Shown: piece by piece, positions 2,914 through 25,745 of the stretch | Layout of the letters: each line of letters opens with the position of its first letter | How positions within the stretch are numbered: position 1 is the first letter of the stretch | Source: Eurosta solidaginis | Taxonomy: Eukaryota; Arthropoda; Insecta; Diptera; Tephritidae | DNA length: 64,000 nt | NCBI RefSeq assembly: GCF_040869045.1 | Contig: NC_090320.1 | Coordinates: forward strand, 118,057,112 to 118,121,111 | Direction of reading: 5' to 3' | Notes under the pieces: model-generated | Told to the model about the DNA's origin: nothing | Databases searched by the model: none | The model's input: only the letters and a program-made list of their open reading frames with translations | Translations under genes and position numbers: made by a program

Positions 2914-2915
2914 TA

Positions 2916-2926
2916 CCCTGCAAAAA
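2916..2926 (+). repeat. Left terminal inverted repeat
   Basis: CCCTGCAAAAA forms the left end of the 9.4-kb element. It is preceded by the target TA at 2914-2915. It is an exact inverted copy of 12334-12344. Confidence 0.85.
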
Positions 2927-3324
2927 CGCTCCACGTCATTTTACTAGTCATTTTACGGTCATTGTGACTTTCTGCAGCGGTTATATTCATAGTCACGTTT
3001 GCATGGGCGTGATTAACTTTTGTGACCAAATTTTCCGTTTCGTTCCTATTAATGTGATCGTGCATTCCGCTCCCACTTATAGGATGTGAGCATAGCACTG
3101 TGCTACTCACACAAGTCACAATGCTCGTCAAATGGCGGTCATTTTTTCGTCATTTCACTCTACATTTTCGAGCCATTTGACAATCAATTTTACTGCGGTT
3201 TTACCATTTATATAACCGCCATATAACGTGAATTTTACCTGCAGATTTACTTTACCTGGAGCAGCCATATGAATAAAATATGAACCAAAAAAATTGAATT
3301 TTCAATATTTATTATTTTCAATAT

Positions 3325-4707
3325 TATTATATATGTACATGAAATTGGAACTTATATTAATCCAGTTCATATAAAACAGAAGAACTTTAATAATAAATAA
3401 ACTCGCTTAATTGGTTTTTGTTTTCCAATGTCTTCTAAGCGAGCAAAATATAATATTAAGCTTTAGAAAAAACTCCAATTATTTGAATAATCTACAACTT
3501 AAAGCTTAGTAGAAATCCAGATTAGGTTTACTCTTTTTTCAGATCATGAATATTCAAAGGTGTCGTAGAATCCGATTGCTGTCGTAATTGATGAATTTAA
3601 AAATGTACGACTAGTAATTGAGTCAGACTTATTATTGTTCTAAATCTAATCATTCAAGCAATAATTCTGCAACCCTTAGCAGGAGTATTGATTGGTTTCA
3701 AATCTAATTCCGACAGCAATCGTATTACGACATCCCTTATTATATATGCACATGAAATTGCAACTTAAATTAATACAGTTGATATAAAGAAAAGTAATTA
3801 TTTTAATAGTAAACAAACTCGCCTTATTGGTTTTTGTTTTCCAATTGAAATCTTTTCCAAGCGAACAGAAAATAATTTTGAGCTTTAGAAAAAACTCCAA
3901 TTATTTGAATCAATTTAAATCTACAACTAAAAGCTAATTAGAAATTCAGATTAGATTTACTCTTTTTTTTCAGATCAAGAATATTCAAAGGTGTCGTGGA
4001 ATCTGATTGCTGTCGTAATTGATGAACTTAAAAATGTACGACTAGTAATTGAGTCAGACTTATTATTGTTCTAAATCTAATCATTCAAGCAATAATTCTG
4101 CAACCCATAGCAGGAGTATTGATTGGTTTCAAATCTAATTCCGTCAGCAATCGTATCACATCCCTTATTTTATATGTACGTGATATTGCAACTTAAATTA
4201 ATACAATTGATATAAAGAAAAGTAAGTACTTTAATAATAACATAAACTCTCTTAATTGGTTTTTGTTTTCCAATTGAAATCTTTTCTAAGCGAGTAGAAA
4301 ATAATTTTAAGCTTTAGAAAAAACTCCAATTATTTGAATAATCTACAACTGAAAGCTTAGTAGAAATTCAGATTAGGTATACTCTTTTTTCAGATCAAGA
4401 ATATTCAGAGGTGTCGTAGAATCCGATTGCTGTCGTAATTGATGAATTTAAAAATGTACGACTTGTAATTAAGTCAGACTTATTATTGTTCTAAATCTAA
4501 TTATTCAAGCAATAATTCTACAACCCTTAGCAGGAGTATTGATTGGTTTCAAATCTAATTCCGACATCAATCGTATCACATCCCTTATTATATATGTACG
4601 TGATATTGCAACTTAAATTAATACTGTTGATATAAAGAAAAGTAAATACTTTAATAATAAATAAACTCTCTTAATTGGTTTTTGTTTTCCAATTGAAATC
4701 TTTTCCT
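3325..4707. repeat. ~420-bp tandem repeat array (about 3.3 units)
   Basis: The same AT-rich unit begins near 3338, 3751, 4179 and 4599 (landmark CATGAAATTG or CGTGATATTG), giving periods of 413, 428 and 420 bp. Each unit contains a TTGGTTTTTGTTTTCCAA-like block, a TCCAATTATTTGAAT block and a GTGTCGTAGAATC block in the same order. The fourth unit stops at about 4707, just before the unknown exon. It is a small satellite-like array inside the TIR element. No coding function is suggested. Confidence 0.9.
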
Positions 4708-4726
4708 GTGCAAGCACATCGCTAAC

Positions 4727-4931
4727 CTGTGTTGGCAAAAGATATGATTATACTGTCTTCGATAGATAGTCGGACGAGCCGTTACTCGGCGAAGTAGAGA
4801 TGACCGTTGTGTCGGTGGCAGCTGTTCAACAGCAGTTTCTAACTTTACACCATCCGTACAGTGTGATGAATGCTTCACTGCCTTTTCCAATTGCTTGGCG
4901 CCAGCGATTTTTGCTGTTTGTAAAGCTTTAG
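4727..4931 (-). pseudogene. Unrecognised captured exon with intact splice sites
   Basis: On the minus strand a good acceptor (TTTGCATTACAG) precedes 205 bases that stay open in one frame. They end at a donor-like ACACAG/GTTAGC. The encoded peptide is basic, begins with a helix-like AKALQTAKIAGAK stretch and contains LRRVTARPTIYRRQY. I do not recognise the family. It lies about 60 bases downstream, on the same strand, of the Atg18/WIPI fragment. It could be an additional exon from another donor gene, or a diverged exon of an unrelated gene. Confidence 0.4.
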
Positions 4932-4984
4932 CTGTAATGCAAATATATAGATGGGTTAAAGTGGTTTTCGTATGTTATTCAACA

Positions 4985-5345
4985 ACTCACCCTATACCAT
5001 CATCACAGCCTCCTCATCGATTTTGAATATGTGTACTGTTTCAGTATTCAGACCCAGTTCGTTTGATGCAATATTTTCGATTTGATGAATATGTATACTA
5101 TCCGTTAGGCAGACAATTAGGTGCGTTCGATTCATTCATATACTGTGGGTATTTGAGCCGTAGACGCAATTGATATATTGTAACATTTGTAAACAGTTGG
5201 GTTTTTCTGCTGTCACCATCACCACTAGAGAGCTATTGAAGAAACGCTCGACCAAGATATGTTGCGATTTACGCGCATAGATTTTTTCCACCTTGTCAGT
5301 TATTGATGGAGAAAATGCGAAAGCCATATTTACCATCCAATACGG
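4985..5345 (-). pseudogene. Atg18: Atg18/WIPI-like WD-repeat (PROPPIN) gene fragment
   Basis: The minus-strand translation contains VEKIYAR, ERFFNSSLVVMVTAEKPN and MNRTHLIVCLTDSIHIH. This matches the first propeller blades of WIPI/Atg18 PROPPINs, the phosphoinositide-binding autophagy proteins, which typically read 'VERLFSSSLVAIV' then 'LNRQRLIVCLEESLYIH'. A TGA sits just before MNRTHL where these proteins usually have an arginine or lysine, consistent with a CGA to TGA change. Downstream the text jumps from the 'NELGL' position to NTETVHIFK, which normally lies much further along, so the middle blades, including the FRRG lipid-binding motif region, are missing. It is therefore an internally deleted, non-functional fragment. 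Identification of the family is fairly secure; which Atg18 paralogue was the source is not. Confidence 0.75.
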
Positions 5346-5574
5346 AAATGGAACTGTGGAGGAAGAAACATTTTATAAAATTTAATAAAATCAATAAATG
5401 ATAGTTGTGTTAAAATGGGGTAAAGTATCGTATGTTAAAGTATAGCGAAGTTTGAATAGGTCTCATTCTTCATTCTTAGAAACATGTACGAAGGTACCTC
5501 GTAAGATATTAAAAATCCTCAACGCTTTTTTGCAATAACTTAAAAAAAACTCATATTCATCAAATTTCTGTTTA

Positions 5575-6739
5575 ACTTCTACATATCAATAGCTACGTTT
5601 ACCACCAGAAGGAGTCACTATTGCTTCTACACCTATGCTATTGTTTCCTACACCGATGAGCTTTGTAATAAAATAAACAGCTATCTCCCCAATCTCTCCA
5701 GTTTTGTCGCCTCGCGAAACCTGATATTGCAACCAACCAAATCATCGGTGATCCTTTTTAAAACATGGCCGCGCCAAATGTCGACCATATGACATTACCC
5801 TACCGACTGTCTTACACCTTAAAATTTTGGGTGTGACTTTCATCAGGATCTACATTTTGGTGAGCACGCAGCCGCAATTGTTCCGAGAAATCAGAGCCGT
5901 ATCAAAATCCTCAAATCCCTCGCTGGCAGTACCTGGGGAAAGGATAAAGAAACGCTCATGACTACACACAAAGCAATTAGCCAGCCGATTAAGTGCTATG
6001 CGTCACCCATATGGTCGCCAAGCCTAAAAATTACCCACTGGAAGAAGCTACAGGCCTGCCAAAATACTGCTCTCAGAATTGCCACGGGCTGTCTTCTTAT
6101 GTCCCCAGAACACCATCTGCATAATGAGGCGAGAATACTCCCCATCAGGGAGAGAAATGAGATGCTGACCAAACAGTTCCTGTTGAATACCCAGAAACCT
6201 GAGCATCCCAACAGACATCTGATTGGTCAACCAGCACCGCCTAGGGGCCTAAGGAGTTATCTCCGTAAGCATTTTGAGGAAATACGGCTCCTGAGAACCC
6301 AGCCGTATGAAGCGAAAAAACACAAGCAGGTCCTTGGTGAACTCCATAAACAAGCGTCGGACCTTTATGCTAGGAATTGCCCGGTGAATCCAGTACTCAA
6401 AGAAAAGTATGCAAACCTCGCGGAAGAGGAACGCATACTCCCCAGAGAAAAGCGAGTCACTCTAGCTCAACTTCGTTCTGGATACTGTAACAGGTTAAAC
6501 TCTTACCTATCCAGAATCAACCCCGGCATACAAAATGTATGCCCGCTTTCAATGTGTCCCCACATGGCACCAACCATCTCTTTAATTGTAATGTGGAACC
6601 AACGCCTCTAACACCCCTTTCATTATGGTCCCCCCTGTCGAAACAGCAAGTTTCCTTGGACTCCCGTTAGAGGATATTGATGATAATTTCTGATCGGTCG
6701 CACCTATTGGATGGGGCGAAGCACTGCTACAATAACAAC
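5575..6739 (+). mobile_element. 5'-truncated non-LTR retrotransposon (Jockey-like), 3' end of ORF2
   Basis: The frame is broken between 5575 and 5958, then runs as an open frame at 5958-6611. The text resembles the post-catalytic part of a LINE reverse transcriptase (ELCNKINSYLPNL, then the 'KILGVTF…' region) and the family-typical C-terminus, ending near 'FLGLPLEDIDDN' after a frameshift at about 6600. The YADD motif region around 5620 is deleted or garbled. The 3' end reads GGGGCGAAGCACTGCTACAATAACAAC, a common tail of insect LINEs. A second fragment of the same family lies at 41648-41863. It is inside the TIR element and inactive. Confidence 0.75.
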
Positions 6740-7329
6740 GTGTGAAAGATGGTTGCATCATTCGTTTGTTGCTCCCTGTTGCTTTGCTTATATTTTTTTT
6801 CTCAATTTTAAACAAATTCGCAACAATAACTAAACTTTTAATTTGTTAACAAAAATAGAAATGCGCAACAAAATTTCAATTGGCAAATCAGCTGACTTCG
6901 AAGATTCGAAATTCCTATTCCCCAATTATTGTTCTCTCTAGGAGAAAAGAATTGGAGGAATTTTTCTGCGGTGCTATTAAGGCAATGACCTTTGACCTCG
7001 AGTAATTTTTTTTAGCTCGAATAGGATAGATGGGGACTTTTAATTTTAATATTTTTATGGTAAACTAGAGGTCCTCACTAAAATTTGGATTTGTAGTAAT
7101 TTTTGTTATTTTAATTGTCTAAATTAGCCGTTCTAATATTAAAATCGCCACTCTCAATAAAAATCAAAAAACAAGTATGAAAAAGTTGTTAACGTTACAG
7201 TGCTTATGGATTCATTTTAAGAGTGCATTAAAAGAAAAAAGTTTTGTTAAAAAGGAAAGGAAAGGAAAGGTCGGTAAAAATGAGACTTACCATATATTCA
7301 TATCGGCTGCTGAGTGGAATATCACCAAA
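6740..7329. other. AT-rich unassigned spacer
   Basis: I find no supported gene or repeat. The short ORF at 7177-7374 is lysine-rich and low in complexity and is not convincing. Confidence 0.5.
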
Positions 7330-7575
7330 TCTCGGCTGCCATTCCAAAAACTTCCTTTCTCAGAATTCGTTTGAAGAACGCCCTATCTTAGAATTTGTTT
7401 CATAAACACTCTAGCTATTGTCAAAATGTGTTGTATTTGAGCTCAGATCGGTCATTTTTGAAGCCAAATCTGAGTTAGGGCATTCTTCAACCGAATTCTG
7501 TGATAGGGCTTTTCTAATATACGGGGTTATTCAAATATTTTCTGAGAAAGGTGCTTTTCGAAACGGCACCCGAGA
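7330..7575. repeat. Imperfect fold-back (MITE-like) repeat
   Basis: Two imperfect inverted arms can be matched. A left arm of about 60 bases (7339-7395: CTTTCTCAGAATTCGTTTGAAG…GCCCTA) pairs with the region 7476-7570 read on the other strand (CTTTCTCAGAA… and CAGAATTCGGTTGAAGAATGCCCTA). The pairing includes smaller internal repeats of the TTAGGGC type. No coding capacity. It is probably a small palindromic element, with boundaries uncertain. Confidence 0.45.
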
Positions 7576-8346
<771 letters not shown>

Positions 8347-9531
8347 TTTTAAAGCTTGTTGTCGCTGAAGTTTCACTGCCTTTTTGAGCGCTTTGAAAGC
8401 TTATGTGTGATGATGCATCATCACCACCCAAAGAACTATTAGACTGATCTTCGCAATTTTCCTCTAGTATAGTAGATGGTCTGAGAAGTTTCACCATTTT
8501 CAAAGGTGAAGTTTGTAAAGTGGTATCGCCCACTATTGTGGAGTCCCACATTTTAGATGGCTTTTCAATATCTTCTAGTAGTGTTACATCAATACTTTTT
8601 AAAGGAGTTTCATTATCCAATTGATGCTGCTCCTGTACGCATAAGTCATGCAATAGACGTTGCAGTGATTGTGCTTCTTCATCTATTTCTTGTAGTTCTA
8701 AGATTATATTATTAAATTTATACCACGCAATCTTATCAACTTTCAATATGTTGTATATTCACTTACCTTGTTTACAAGGGATTTTAAAATAGTTTCCATC
8801 GGCGCTGCGCTTTTTAGCATCTTCTTTAACCATATCCTTGTTCTCGCTATGTATGTACTTAAATAGTGTGCTGTTAGGATCGGATGCTGTTTTATCACAC
8901 ATTTTTTCCAAAGCCATAAAACTTTCATCAGACGTACGTTGCTGTTGGCATTCAAATATAGTTTCGTCACAAGATGCCTTAGTTGAAAAATTATAAGGAA
9001 TCCTCTTTATAGTGTTTGCATGGTTGGATTTATTTTCATCCTCCATTTCAAATAGTTTGTTCATTGCATTTCCGCTAACAGCAACGTTACTTTCGTGTTG
9101 ATCCACATCCTCTACATCCAAGCTAAAGCGTTGGCAAGATACCGGCTCTTTAGCAGGCGTTGTAGCCTTTCTAAATGTGTTCGTGAATCGAGAAAAAAAT
9201 GTTGAAGATATTGTTTGTATTAATTTTTAATAATAGGTATATATTACCATGCTAAAGTGATTTATCTTTTTAAAAGTAAAGTAATAAAGTTATACAAGCT
9301 AGTAGCTACTTTTTAGTCAAAGATTTGGAAAAATTTCGAATTCTTATATAGTAAGCCAATTTACTCTACACTATTTAAAACATCCATCTCCATGCTCACT
9401 CGAATGGCTCATCATAAACAAGCATGCAATTTTAATGATATATTTATAAGCATTTACCGTTGCATGACAAGTAATTTCTTGACTTTTGCACGCCAAGCTT
9501 TATTTGCTTGAAATTTTTCCAATCCAGACAT
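8347..9531 (-). pseudogene. Unrecognised acidic host gene fragment, at least two to three exons
   Basis: On the minus strand a first coding exon starts at an ATG near 9531 (MSGLEKFQANKAWRAK) and ends at a donor at about 9459 (CAACG/GTAAATG). A long exon begins after an acceptor near 9181 and runs to about 8766, ending at AACAAG/GTAAGT. A third open segment (8746-8347) follows after only ~25 bases, so the intervening intron appears deleted. The protein is acidic and serine/threonine-rich, with a heptad-like stretch (LQEIDEEAQSLQRLLHDL) and no domain I recognise. At about 8347 it runs through a poly-A/lysine stretch straight into the middle of a zinc finger, so it looks joined to a second gene. 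Function unknown. Confidence 0.5.
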
Positions 9532-9579
9532 TTGTATTCAGGAAAATTGAAAAAGAGCAACAAACATCCAAGTTATATT

Positions 9580-9838
9580 TTATTGAACCACAGCAGACAA
9601 GGCGCGGTAATCTTCCAGGGTTTTCGTTACGAAATATCTTTTCCAGATAAGCTTATACCACTTGAGCACGCTACGTTGTGTTATTATTTTATCCAATAGT
9701 TTCTTAATGGTTGCCCCATCATTTGAAATTGTGGCCTTACCACTGGAATCAACAATATGCTTGTCCATATTACGTGAACCCAATGTAGTGCGTACAGCGT
9801 CCACAATTGAATGCGAGGTATTGATGTTGGATATGATG
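9580..9838 (-). pseudogene. CCT7: CCT7 (TCP-1 eta chaperonin subunit) N-terminal exon fragment
   Basis: The minus strand encodes [21 protein letters not shown] then [20 protein letters not shown] and KKLLD. This is the highly conserved equatorial-domain start of the eta subunit of the cytosolic chaperonin CCT/TRiC, which folds actin and tubulin. In functional CCT7 the loop reads TTLGPRGMDKL; here it is [11 protein letters not shown]. The similarity ends at KLLD (about 9690). The following codons, to a stop at 9580, belong to something I cannot identify (…[13 protein letters not shown]…). There is no ATP-hydrolysis GDGTT motif, so this cannot be functional. It begins immediately after the TRMT1 fragment on the same strand, making a chimeric junction near 9840. 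Confidence 0.85.
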
Positions 9839-11412
9839 AATATTTTTTACATAAAAACTCATGTACCCAATACAAGTTCAGGCATACCGCCGATAACACA
9901 CCTTTTAAACGACGTTGTGTCCAAATCACTTAGCGGTTTTTCTTCTATGATTTGTAGCAATTCTTCAACAAACGTTGGATCATGTATGGGATGCGACCAA
10001 AGTGGACCGCCCATCTATATTTGGGAATATAAGAAACAATTTGGTGTGAACAATTGGTGCCAGTTAACCCTCTGAAAAAGCGACTGACGCGCCTTTTTGA
10101 ACGGACATAACCGTTTAAACGGTTAAGCACCAATTAAGTAAGAACGAAAAAATTTGATTTATTCGAGTTTAAATACTTAAGTGGGATAGCTGAAACTTAC
10201 ATGATGTTTATCACCGCAATGCGCACAATTTGTATTAACATTTGGTCCAGTTGGTATACCGAATTTTTCTTCCGCATTGCCTTTATCTGAGATCTTGCTT
10301 TTTACAATACCCATAGGCTGTAGCGTATAGGTATCACAACCAGTGCATTGAAATACCATTCATTGTTTGCTGTGTTCATAATATAAAGATATGGTAAGTA
10401 ATTGGATTGTGGTAAAAGGCCAAAATGCTGTATACCAACCTCATGCTATATTTACACTTCGCTTGACTACTATGCATACGCACAAATACGCGTATATAAA
10501 AATTGGCAGAAATGCTCAAAAGTGGCTCAATATATTTTCCATAACGATTAGAGTGCGTTTCAATACAATGCAATAGTATACGCAATCCCATCTCATGGCA
10601 GCATTTCATACGCAAAGGCACAGAACTATATTTGGCATTGCAGGCTTCAGGCGTATTGCCTGCCAGCACAGCCATATCATTCGCAGTTACAAGTAATGAA
10701 CCCCCACTCGTCAGTGATTGTATAGCGCCATCCAGAAATCGATTCGGACAACATTAAGGATCTAGGTCTATAACATCGAAACGCTTCTCATATGAAGTTG
10801 AAAGGTACATGAGAGTCCTATTGCGAATTTTATTATTGATTATTACAGTTAAATCACTAGCTATTGATTCGTATATCAAACCTACATTGCATCCCCTTCG
10901 CTTGGCACAATTAAATGTTCCACTCCATTGTGTCGCATATTTACGCTAATGGAATCTACTGCCACCTTAGATAGATCATTTGCAACAATTTCACGCACGC
11001 CTGCTACTTCTTTTGCATAACTTATGCTACGTAAACCTGTTGCAGCAAGCGCTTCCAATATTCGCAGTCCATCATCGTATTTTACACCACCAGCCGTGTA
11101 TGGTTTCTTGTCATTAGCATTGTTTCTTTCCTTTGTATTTTGCGGATTTTTATGCGCCGCCGCTTCCCGCTCTCTTATCAACCGCTTTGAGTATACATTA
11201 AGTACTGAAATACTTAAATCACGATTAAATTCTTGTACTGGATTGTAGAATACGGCCCCGCCGGCAATAATTTCTGTAGTGCTTTCTTTGATCAAACGTT
11301 CGGGTGCTTTGTCGTTCGTAGCGATCTGTTAATTCATAAAATTTAGGGCGATTTTGTTAATAACACGAAACATATATTTACCTTATTTTCAGATATTTCC
11401 TCAACTTCCATT
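9839..11412 (-). pseudogene. TRMT1: TRMT1-like tRNA (guanine-26 N2,N2) dimethyltransferase pseudogene, 3'-truncated
   Basis: Minus strand. The family enzyme is a SAM-dependent dimethylase acting on G26 of tRNAs. A short start exon (ATG at 11410) ends at AAATAAG/GTAAAT. After a 56-bp intron, exon 2 (11325-10886) encodes FYNPVQEFNRDLS and LRILEALAATGLRS, the SAM-binding start. A 68-bp intron (10885-10818) follows. Exon 3 encodes YEKRFDVIDLDP, LTSGGSLLVTANDMAVLAGN, MGLRILLHCIETH and PLLSISANFYIRVFVR. The next exon has the FQCTGCDTY…CAHCGDKHH zinc-type cysteines, and the last (from about 10016) has GGPLWSHPIHDPTFVEELLQI. A TAA replaces the expected tyrosine codon after DLDP (10756-10754), another stop precedes MVFQC, and the frame is lost at the 3' end. 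Introns are retained, so it was copied as DNA. It fuses into CCT7 near 9840. Confidence 0.9.
10078..10142 (+). repeat. 65-bp 3' tail of an RTE LINE inside a TRMT1 intron
   Basis: The segment closely matches the inverted 3' end of the RTE LINE at 27300-27365, sharing GCGACTG.CGCGCCTT, CCATAACCGTTTA-type and AGCRCCAATTARGTAAG blocks. It is a severely 5'-truncated insertion inside the intron that follows the GDKHH exon. It has the orientation of a plus-strand LINE. Confidence 0.65.
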
Positions 11413-11569
11413 TTGGCTTTAAACTGCTGTGCATCCAAGTTTTTGTTATCAGCTGTTCGGTGGTGGCATACGCTGGCTGCTGCTTTCGTTGAACAGTGAA
11501 TCGTGGAAACTGTTTCAACAGAGGAAATATTTAAGCATTAAAGATGCACAACACTGTTTTTTTATAAAT

Positions 11570-11745
11570 CAACGATGATAGCCAGCCTTGGGAGGTTGTT
11601 GCTGCTGCTATCGTGGCCTTGCATTACCCGGTTGCTGTTGTGGTATATACCTTGGTATAACTGGATGTGGCGTCATTGCCACACCTGGTCCAGTTGATGC
11701 GGACCACGAACAACAACCACCACGACCTACACTGTTTGGATTCAC
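11570..11745 (-). pseudogene. C-terminal fragment of an unrecognised Pro/Gln-rich protein
   Basis: The minus strand reads VNPNSVGRGG…STGPGVAMTPHPVIP, then RYIPQQQPGNARPR, an in-frame stop where a glutamine would fit the run, QQQQPPKAGYHR and a stop. Low-complexity, glycine/proline/glutamine-rich tails of this kind occur in RNA-binding proteins, but I do not recognise the gene. It lies upstream of the TRMT1 fragment on the same strand, separated by what looks like TRMT1 5' untranslated sequence. It is probably another captured piece. Confidence 0.4.
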
Positions 11746-12333
11746 TTTGCTGCTGCAAACACACCTCCGTCACAATAATTAATGGAGACCATGGAGGGGT
11801 ATCTCAACAAGAGAGGCGATTTTATTGCACACATAGCCGTTTTTTTACACCGAATTTTCTAATCTTTTTTTTTTTTTCAATTTTGGGATAATAAATCTTA
11901 ATGGTAACAAGAATTTTTTTCTTGTATGTATGTGGAAATCAAAATTTACTATTCTGCATTAGAATTGCTCACGATTATTTATACTATGCTATTACATATT
12001 TCACTTTCTTTCTTTATAAACATGCAGACATTGATATGAGTTTTTTTTGCTAAAACACACTTTAGTAGACCAAAAAATATTAATTTCTGCAAAATGTAAA
12101 TCACACAAATTGAAAAAATTTTCCACTTTTCTGCAGAATTAGAAATGGCGGATTTTTCGCACGCAAAAATGACGTATTTTGCTATCCCTTTGAAAATAAT
12201 AGGTGCGAGAGAGCACGATACATTGTGGGAAAGCAAAATTTGTCAGCATGCTATTTCATTTGCAAAATTTTTCATTCCAAATCGTCACCCCTGTCAAAAA
12301 TTCGTGTGGCTGTGTGCGTTTTTGGTCACTCGA
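11746..12333. other. AT-rich terminal segment of the TIR element
   Basis: I find no supported gene. Short ORFs on both strands overlap and are compositionally AT-driven. This is the non-coding right-hand end of the element, next to the inverted repeat. Confidence 0.5.
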
Positions 12334-12344
12334 TTTTTGCAGGG
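12334..12344 (-). repeat. Right terminal inverted repeat
   Basis: TTTTTGCAGGG is the exact inverted complement of 2916-2926. It is followed by the second copy of the target TA (12345-12346). Confidence 0.85.
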
Positions 12345-12967
12345 TACATACGTTGGTATAAGTATACGGACAGTCAGTGCACGCACTTTACCGCATTGGT
12401 AGATTTACCAGCTTTTTGACCCATTTTCATTTTCTACTACTTCTACCACCAAAACTTAGATTTTATCAATATTTCAGTATTTTCGCATTGAAAACGTATA
12501 CTGCGTTCATTTTAAAGTATTTAATTGCCGAGCCCACCCAACTAACATTAGGAGGTGATACTGACCAAATCAGTCAATTTTGAAAAATTTGTGAACAAAT
12601 TTAAACAAGAAATAAATTTTTTGATGAGATAAATGTAGTAACTGAGCACGCGAATATTTTCTGCGCTATTTTCATCAGTTTTTTTTTGTGAATAATTTTG
12701 AACGAAAATAAAAAGTTTTACGTAAACGATAACATGCCGAAGTCGGTTATTTTGTGCCAGTATTTTTGGTACTTTGGAATATTGTTGTGATTAGACGTTT
12801 TGGTACATTTTTGTCAGTATTTCACACTCACAATACAGGAAAAAAGTGAGTATCGTATAGGCATAATATATGTCTACGGAAATTTCCACATATTTTCTTT
12901 TGTGTATATTTTTTGTTACTTCTGTGAGATGTGATCTATTTGTTTTGCAATAAATTGTGAATTGTTT
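12345..12967. repeat. Duplicated block A, copy 1, right part
   Basis: It matches 22138-22760 over 623 bp with one visible difference (GGAGGTGATA versus GGAGGCGATA). Similarity stops at TTGTGAATTGTTT in both copies, which gives the shared right boundary of block A. No gene is seen. Confidence 0.9.
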
Positions 12968-24105: not shown

Positions 24106-25745
24106 CGGCAAAACATCAAAATTTAAAAAAACAGGGTGATTTTAAAGATGTTCCTGAACAAAAAAAAAACAGGCAAATTACAATTGAATAGAAAAAAATG
24201 TGGTCCAGCTTATTAAAAAAAAATAAATGTAAGGCGCGATGACCTCCGAAGAGATCTAAGGCCGAGCTTCTCTTCCAATTTGCGTCGTGCTCCTCTTGAT
24301 TTTCCCTACAAATTGGCCGGACGGGACCTACATGTTTTATGCCGACTCCGAACGGCATCTGCAAGGCAGATGAGTTTTCACTGAGAGCTTTTCATGGCAG
24401 AAATACACCCGGAGCGCTTGCCAAACACTGCCGAGGGGCGAACCCGCTTAGAAGAAATGTCTTCTAATTGAAAAACCTTATTTCTAAAATTTTGATGTTG
24501 CTTTGTCCGGGGTGCGAACCCAGGGCATACGGTGTGGTAGGCGGAGCACGCTACCATCACACCACGGCGCCCGGTCCGGCTCATTGGGTTGGCGAAAACA
24601 GAAAACTTGGTTCTTACGGCCGCCATGGGTTGTCTGGTGGTCTCTTCAGCCATCACGATGAGCGTACCTTTTGCTTTGGGAAATATATTTGCAAATTTTC
24701 ACTTATTCTTCTTGGTGTATTTATTGTGGGTGGTTTGACGAACTTATTAAGAGTTTACCTTTCCAATAGTGCATCATTACGTATAATAAAGGATTTACGC
24801 TCAAACGTTTATCGTCGCATGCTCTTACAGGAAACAGGCTGGTTTGATACAAAGGGTACTGGTGAGCTATTTAATCGCTTAGTGAATGATACATATATGG
24901 TCGGGAATTCGCTCAGTCAAAATTTATCTGCGCTCAACAGTATTGATTATTGCTGGCGCTTTATTGATAATATACACCTCACCGAGCTTGGCGCTTGTTA
25001 GCACATGTATTGTACCATGCGTTGCTGGTATAGCCATAGTATGCGGTCATTATGTACGCAACATTACACGTAACCTACTGGACAAATTCGCTGATATATC
25101 GAAATCAGCTGAAGAACGTTTAGGCAATGTAAAAATTGTCAAAGGATTTTGCAAGGACTATGAAGAGAGCAAAGCTTATGACGCACTACTTACAGATGCG
25201 TTGAATCTTGGCTATAAAGAAGTCCAAGCGCATTCAATATTCTTTGGTTTGACTGGGTTTTCTGGTAATGTGATAATAATTTCTGTAATCGATTATGGAG
25301 GCACGTTGGTCATACACGATGCGCTCAGTGTTGGTGCATTATTTTCTTTCATATTAGACGCTGGTTATTCAGCGATATCCATAAATGGTTTATCCAACTT
25401 TTATACTGAACTCAATAAGGGCGTGGGAGCAGCGCAACGTGGTTGGGAAATACTCGACCGGTAATGTGCAATTCCACTACACACTGGTATATTGCCAAAA
25501 AAGCGCAACCGCGTGGCAAGATGACCTTTGAAAACGTACGATTTAGTTTTCCGGCGCGTGCATCTCACGCTTCAACCGGGTGAGTCCACAGCGGTGGTCG
25601 GACGAAGTGGTTCGGGAACAACAACAATTTCTACATTAGGGCTACGTTTATATGATACACTGTAATGTTGGATGATATCGATCTGCGAGAGTTAAGTCCA
25701 GTTTGGTTACGTAAACCAGGAACAAACCCTGTTTTCGGGCAATCC
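24106..25745 (+). pseudogene. ABCB10-like mitochondrial ABC transporter pseudogene
   Basis: After the SINE at 24215-24572, the text LIGLAKTENLVLTAAMGCL and SAITMSVPFALG begins the membrane domain. LRVYLSNSASLRIIKDLRSN, ETGWFDTKGTGELFNRL, SAEERLGNVKIVKGF and FFGLTGFSGN follow the order in ABCB10-type half-transporters of the inner mitochondrial membrane. The frame shifts near 24650-24700 and 24925. The 24886-25464 frame stops at 25464 after GWEILDR, and FENVRFSFPAR and a Walker A follow in other frames. The Walker A reads GRSGSGTTT with threonine in place of the essential lysine. MLDDIDLRELSPVWLR marks the D-loop approach region, then it ends near 25745. No introns are seen across ~1 kb. Non-functional. 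Confidence 0.85.
24215..24572 (-). mobile_element. tRNA-derived SINE, copy 1
   Basis: A 358-bp element read on the minus strand. Its head is GTGGTGTGATGGTAGCG (A-box region), followed by a B-box-like GGTTCGCACC. The body has paired CATCTGCAAGGCAGATG and GGCCGGACGGGAC blocks, and the tail is T/A-rich. It is flanked by imperfect 13-bp target duplications (GGTCCAGCTTATT at 24202-24214, GGTCCGGCTCATT at 24573-24585). It interrupts the ABCB10 pseudogene. A second copy of the same family is at 32022-32391. Confidence 0.85.

Follow-up and report, generated by a model that had tools for sequence, protein, structure and literature searches.

The 64,000-nucleotide stretch of DNA analysed here (the window; positions 118,057,112 to 118,121,111 of contig NC_090320.1 of the tephritid fly Eurosta solidaginis) contains, at window positions 2916-12344, a 9,429-bp element, hereafter W. 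An earlier inspection of the letters alone, the sequence-only reading, had described W as an inverted-repeat-bounded element of the Pack type, carrying fragments of several host genes and no transposase. Searches beyond the window covered the 1.9-Gb assembly, in which other loci are designated by L numbers. In window coordinates, the features of W are as follows:

2914..2915, no strand: left target-site duplication TA, identical to the 2 bp at 12345-12346
2916..2926, + strand: left terminal inverted repeat CCCTGCAAAAA, exact match, TA adjoining
2916..3175, no strand: subterminal GTCA-rich stretch, possibly transposase-binding repeats
3324..4705, + strand: tandem array of 420-bp period and 3.3 copies, at least partly common to the other long elements compared
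5139..5372, - strand: WIPI/Atg18 (PROPPIN) fragment, weak in W and clear in its relative L012
5823..6608, + strand: open frame of 262 amino acids (aa), in DNA common to other elements
7972..8758, - strand: C2H2 zinc-finger gene fragment (zf-H2C2_2)
8762..9226, - strand: 155-aa open frame adjoining the zinc-finger piece, for which Pfam gives no family
9583..9846, - strand: N-terminal fragment of CCT7 (CCT subunit eta), from Cpn60_TCP1 and PDB matches
9882..11328, - strand: TRMT1 fragment with introns (PF02005), 3' breakpoint near 9882
10015..10200, - strand: TRMT1 intron, 186 bp, of equal length in the probable parent L077
10370..10439, - strand: TRMT1 intron, 70 bp, of equal length in the probable parent L077
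10818..10885, - strand: TRMT1 intron, 68 bp, GT-AG, only partly covered by the L077 stretch
11326..11381, - strand: TRMT1 intron, 56 bp, GT-AG, read from sequence, beyond the L077 stretch compared
12334..12344, - strand: right terminal inverted repeat (CCCTGCAAAAA on this strand), exact match, TA adjoining
12345..12346, no strand: right target-site duplication TA, from the tabulated flank comparison

The perfect 11-bp inverted ends with TA on both sides, as first described, are borne out by exact matches at 2916-2926 and 12334-12344, and these are the only two exact matches to CCCTGCAAAAA in the window. When one mismatch is allowed the window holds four matches against 2.22 expected, a number reached by 23 of 100 shuffles; judged within the window alone the tips are little proof, whereas the genome-wide evidence is strong, with TACCCTGCAAAAA found 2336 times on the + strand and 2311 times on the - strand, where the reversed control occurs 46 and 34 times. 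Past 13 bp the two ends show no visible match to each other. Subterminally, the left end contains 10 GTCA/TGAC motifs per 260 bp (shuffle mean 2.67; none of 300 shuffles reaches 10) and the right end four per 130 bp (shuffle mean 1.23; 6 of 300 shuffles reach four).

Comparison of flanking sequence demonstrates that exactly 2 bp are shared in all eight elements tabulated (W, L059-L064 and a 12.2-kb relative described below), and 3 bp in none of the eight. The duplicated sequence varies among them (TA, TT, CA, CT, AT), and TA, seen on both sides of W in the sequence-only reading, represents one of several dinucleotides used. TA also lies on both flanks of L012, L013 and L024, which had been selected by a TA-containing pattern; the tabulated elements other than W were not so selected. 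Furthermore, W exists in a second copy, L059, which is likewise 9,429 bp in length, is 99.958% identical end to end, and lies on the same contig at a distance of some 92 Mb. At the 3' tip of L059 the last 29 bp are doubled in tandem; its target duplication lies outside the second 29-bp copy and was read from the outer 3' tip.

Relatives of W were collected in two sets. Firstly, 20 regions were fetched from sites matching TACCCTGCAAAAA, and among these 18 pairs of facing tips were found. Three of the pairs (L012, L013, L024) have the ends of the W family, and 14 of the 18 are members of families that have this tip but a different interior; a 5,384-bp pair at L026 was disregarded, as its tips come from two different elements. 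The CCCTGCAAAAA tip borders different interiors (GTACTCC type, GTGCGATTAATC type) at L009-L011, L014-L022 and L025, and a 3,114-bp element at L025 (233-3346) bears the ends of a small GTACTCC-type family. L004 and L027, which are one locus, have a diverged 5' end (82%) and no facing tip in the stretch fetched. Secondly, a search with the first 385 bp of W at a minimum identity of 97%, in which 40 of 1,820 first-look candidates were scored, returned 42 matches, W included. Thirty loci were cut out, of which 16, W among them, align collinearly with W across 1,780 bp or more of the 1,885 bp at an identity of 97% or higher. Six 10-kb regions (L059-L064) were picked by hand from the 30, one because it is close to W and five because they are divergent; both ends are present in all six. 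Loci carrying both termini, whose absence would have spoken against the sequence-only reading, therefore exist, and some of them hold other cargo. Three types of cargo can be distinguished:

Type I (W, L059, L060, L062, L063, L064): WIPI, zinc finger, CCT7, TRMT1
Type II (L013, L061): WIPI, CCT7 in two pieces, Sec24, Myb
Type III (L012 and the 12.2-kb element): WIPI, OPA3, zinc finger

Domains were called in the sequences of W, L012 and L013, and the content of the other members follows from shared DNA; L062 is missing part of the zinc-finger stretch. All three types share the 5' module and the 3' tip, the common 3' sequence being the last 215 bp for types I and II and just 55 bp when type III is included. 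L024 is a 540-bp internal-deletion form with the ends of the W family.

In agreement with the earlier description, W yields no transposase: three transposases used as tblastn queries at E 1e-3 gave no match in the window. A transposase-bearing relative between the same ends, for which that description had advised a search, is found at G000:C2:78143518-78155697. By its coordinates this element is 12,180 bp long; both tips are present, its duplication is TT, and it contains a 630-aa transposase frame together with host-gene cargo; the region around the transposase spans approximately 3.9 kb, compared with approximately 0.1 kb in W. In the blocks that align, L012 is 97-99% identical to this relative; some 2.65 kb, containing most of the transposase, is missing from L012. 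The 259-aa transposase piece of L012 has 150 matches in the genome (147 of 783 candidates scored), many of which sit in open frames of 600 to 712 aa; at two further transposase loci, L073 and L074, family ends were not found within the 5 kb fetched. A protein search with the same piece gave 218 word-sharing candidates, of which none reached E 0.001. DUF4218, a domain that accompanies tnp2, appears in all three transposases tested at E 0.035, 0.059 and 0.036, each under the Pfam cut-off, and for these three Pfam lists no tnp2 family up to E 1 and no family over its cut-off.

Assignment of the family to a known superfamily was approached by way of tips and duplications. Target-site duplications are 8-11 bp in Mutator-like elements (MULEs), 8 bp in hAT and TTAA in piggyBac, and the duplication of exactly 2 bp in eight of eight elements rules out all three; the tips of W, like its duplication, are not MULE-like. 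Tc1/mariner is ruled out by the occurrence of TT, CA, CT and AT besides TA. Members of CACTA/EnSpm (CMC) have tips starting CACTA or CACTG, a 3-bp duplication in plants and, typically, short subterminal repeats. The CCCTGCAAAAA tips of W start with CCCTG (the Arabidopsis CACTA tip is CACTACAA; PMC8903248), and a 3-bp duplication is absent from all eight elements; the GTCA repeats, counted in W only, do supply the subterminal feature. Because the transposase is only weakly CACTA-like (sub-threshold DUF4218), membership is not claimed, and the link to CACTA is offered as a lead.

Cargo was identified on the open stretches of W by Pfam domain search and PDB matches, which recover each of the four genes originally named. 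TRM (PF02005, TRMT1) scores above the Pfam cut-off, at E 1.5e-37, 4.9e-29 and 0.0015, in a frame interrupted by a stop. Cpn60_TCP1 reaches E 7.1e-08 (32 bits, cut-off 34.3) and is accompanied by a PDB match to CCT subunit eta at 5.8e-14, and zf-H2C2_2 gives E 3.6e-08 (33.8 bits, cut-off 40) and 3.2e-04, both below the cut-off. For PROPPIN the values in W are weak (E 0.019, 14.6 bits, cut-off 30; PDB WIPI2 match 0.013), and the identity of this fragment is secured by the corresponding part of L012, which passes the PROPPIN cut-off at E 4.4e-12. The 155-aa frame probably belongs to the same gene as the adjoining zinc-finger piece. The 262-aa frame at 5823..6608, one of the genes initially left unrecognised, has no match in a Pfam search, and is taken here to be, probably, a non-LTR (long terminal repeat) retrotransposon remnant. 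The description of the fragments as decayed has to be qualified: two TRMT1 introns keep their splice borders and exact length, and at many other loci the TRM frames are open over about 300 aa. Elsewhere in the window, frames at 24468-25464 resemble an ABC transporter whose reading frame is broken.

The TRMT1 piece is the cargo whose origin can be followed furthest. A genome search with PF02005 gave 114 matches (109 of 441 candidates scored). Seven of the loci (L065-L071) were read and all seven contain W-like sequence, five with a family tip in the stretch; L067 is the same place as L064. With W, L059, L060, L062 and L063, these make 12 places, out of the 114 matches, read as element copies, which leaves the TRM copy number an estimate. 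L071, considered as the native TRMT1, was ruled out as another element copy. L077, 150 Mb from W, was found via the highest-scoring PF02005 match starting near an exon border, and was read from intron 2 to beyond the stop. W 9882-10873 is 95.7% identical to L077 in a 994-bp alignment that takes in two complete introns (70 and 186 bp), and L077 continues past the element breakpoint into a complete C-terminal exon and stop. Together these data make L077 the probable TRMT1 parent gene, and the TRMT1 cargo is a genomic, intron-containing copy. The break in TRMT1 falls at the same base in all six type-I elements, for which the simplest reading is one DNA-level capture that was multiplied later.

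Taken together, these observations indicate, with a high degree of confidence, that W is a non-autonomous cut-and-paste DNA transposon of the Pack type, and they uphold the sequence-only reading on this point while placing W in a multicopy family. The characteristics of Pack-TYPE and Pack-TIR (terminal inverted repeat) elements are found in W: inverted termini with a duplication, unrelated host-gene sequence and no transposase of its own. A parent gene elsewhere is found for TRMT1 only, in the form of the probable parent L077, and the 12,180-bp relative departs from the pattern in having its own transposase. Several points weigh against this interpretation. Mobility of W is read from sequence comparison, and the action of a transposase on it is presumed; among the cargo genes a parent has been located for TRMT1 alone; and the probable parent status of L077 derives from its stretch between intron 2 and the region past the stop, and L077 may itself lie within an element. 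In addition, a 43-bp piece of L077 intron 4 occurs at 97.7% identity in both type-II elements (L013 5835-5877, and L061), and may be a dispersed repeat or the trace of an older exchange.

For a Pack-type W, transposase from full-size relatives would act in trans, via the tips and the subterminal GTCA repeats. Host sequence may have been captured as DNA when adjacent elements transposed jointly, or by gap filling from another locus, and, once inside the element, would have multiplied as a passenger. WIPI and the tandem array would have come first, since their DNA is shared by all long elements compared, followed by CCT7 (types I and II) and later, in separate lineages, by TRMT1 or by Sec24 and Myb. 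Another element tip abuts one of the 30 5'-end loci, L031 (GGG|CCC), and lies near three more, 12 bp away at L036, about 75 bp away at L058 and about 1,040 bp away at L055; such an arrangement is required for tandem-insertion capture, and 4 of 30 is a raw count. A same-strand capture rule was dropped, as the OPA3 and zinc-finger pieces of type III are opposite in strand to the transposase piece.

The explanation that survives best beside joint transposition, and one compatible with a Pack-type W, is that a real element gained its cargo by transposition-independent gap filling and spread by ordinary transposition. Such a route, which is a serious contender though somewhat short of an even chance, has been inferred for the majority of single-copy cases in animals (Tan et al., 2021, PMC8277862), and the single TRMT1 breakpoint in six of six elements fits one capture event of any kind. 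Conversely, the same work favours fork switching together with transposition for multicopy cases, and the neighbouring element tips fit tandem-insertion capture as well. The data do not decide between tandem insertion, gap filling and fork switching.

Maintenance of the cargo by selection, for instance of a TRMT1-derived product that serves the element, is improbable. Replacement-to-silent ratios were calculated crudely, from distinct changes against the majority sequence and with no tree, after removal of the duplicate locus L067. One TRMT1 exon gives 2.11 (13 copies, with two nonsense changes) and the other 0.84 (12 copies; core 0.98), values which, along with the stop in the TRM frame of W, argue against selection. 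In its favour are the many PF02005 matches in which the TRM domain lies in an uninterrupted frame of about 300 aa, and a ratio of 0.53 for the zinc-finger frame, a value that rests on a small set (6 copies, 16 changes). The likeliest status of the cargo is that of a passenger, with the open TRM frames and the ratio of 0.53 as the evidence against it.

The two remaining explanations are scarcely credible. That two unrelated small elements with a common 11-bp tip flank decayed host sequence by chance draws on the abundance of a tip common to several families, and on ends of W that do not match each other past 13 bp, but is refuted, unless L059 is an assembly artefact, by recurrence of the whole unit at a second site, and is countered further by five relatives that match in part and have both ends and 2-bp duplications. 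Helitrons have neither inverted termini nor a target-site duplication, and rolling-circle capture of the Helitron type is accordingly at odds with inverted tips and 2-bp duplications in eight of eight elements, as well as with three tested transposase frames in which Pfam finds no Rep or helicase family, even if Helitrons are known to capture gene fragments, insects included (PMC6544945).

Extending the Pack-type interpretation from W to its family, it is possible, if doubtful, that this is an animal transposon lineage of recent activity whose transposase-bearing copies themselves carry host exons, forming a modular exon shuffler that gains gene pieces step by step, trades them between sublineages and disperses them in large numbers. 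If so, small RNAs or chimeric transcripts may feed back onto the parent genes. In an insect host, a large family that carries several genes, has moved recently and includes a near-identical copy, a relative with a transposase frame and a locatable parent would allow capture, acquisition order and effects on parent genes to be studied directly in one genome.

Pack-type capture is well documented in plants, while the animal cases are small and mostly single-copy (Tan et al., 2021, PMC8277862). In the portion of that work consulted, no Pack-TIR is reported from insect reference genomes and one family from fly populations (Ssk-FB4), and in animal Pack-TIRs the median size of the captured sequence is 224 bp, with four cases being multicopy. 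Like W, these are TIR elements with host sequence, made multicopy via transposition, with a parent elsewhere; unlike them, W combines several genes in a 9.4-kb unit, with 114 TRM matches and 12 places read as element copies. Plant Pack-CACTA and other Pack-TYPE elements, for which capture via tandem insertion and re-mobilisation has been proposed (Gisby and Catoni, 2022, PMC8903248), likewise draw their cargo from more than one locus, but the W family differs from Pack-CACTA in its CCCTG rather than CACTA tips, its 2-bp duplication, its animal host, and a relative in which transposase and cargo occur together. Pack-MULEs also hold gene fragments between inverted repeats, and W, at 9.4 kb, is longer than those of Jiang 2004, none of which exceeds 7 kb (Arkhipova and Yushenova, 2019, PMC6431247). 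Within this limited literature, to which later insect reports may add, the novelty claimed for a multi-gene animal case is supported: what sets W apart from the known cases is that pieces of several genes share one multicopy 9.4-kb unit, a relative of which carries a transposase frame.

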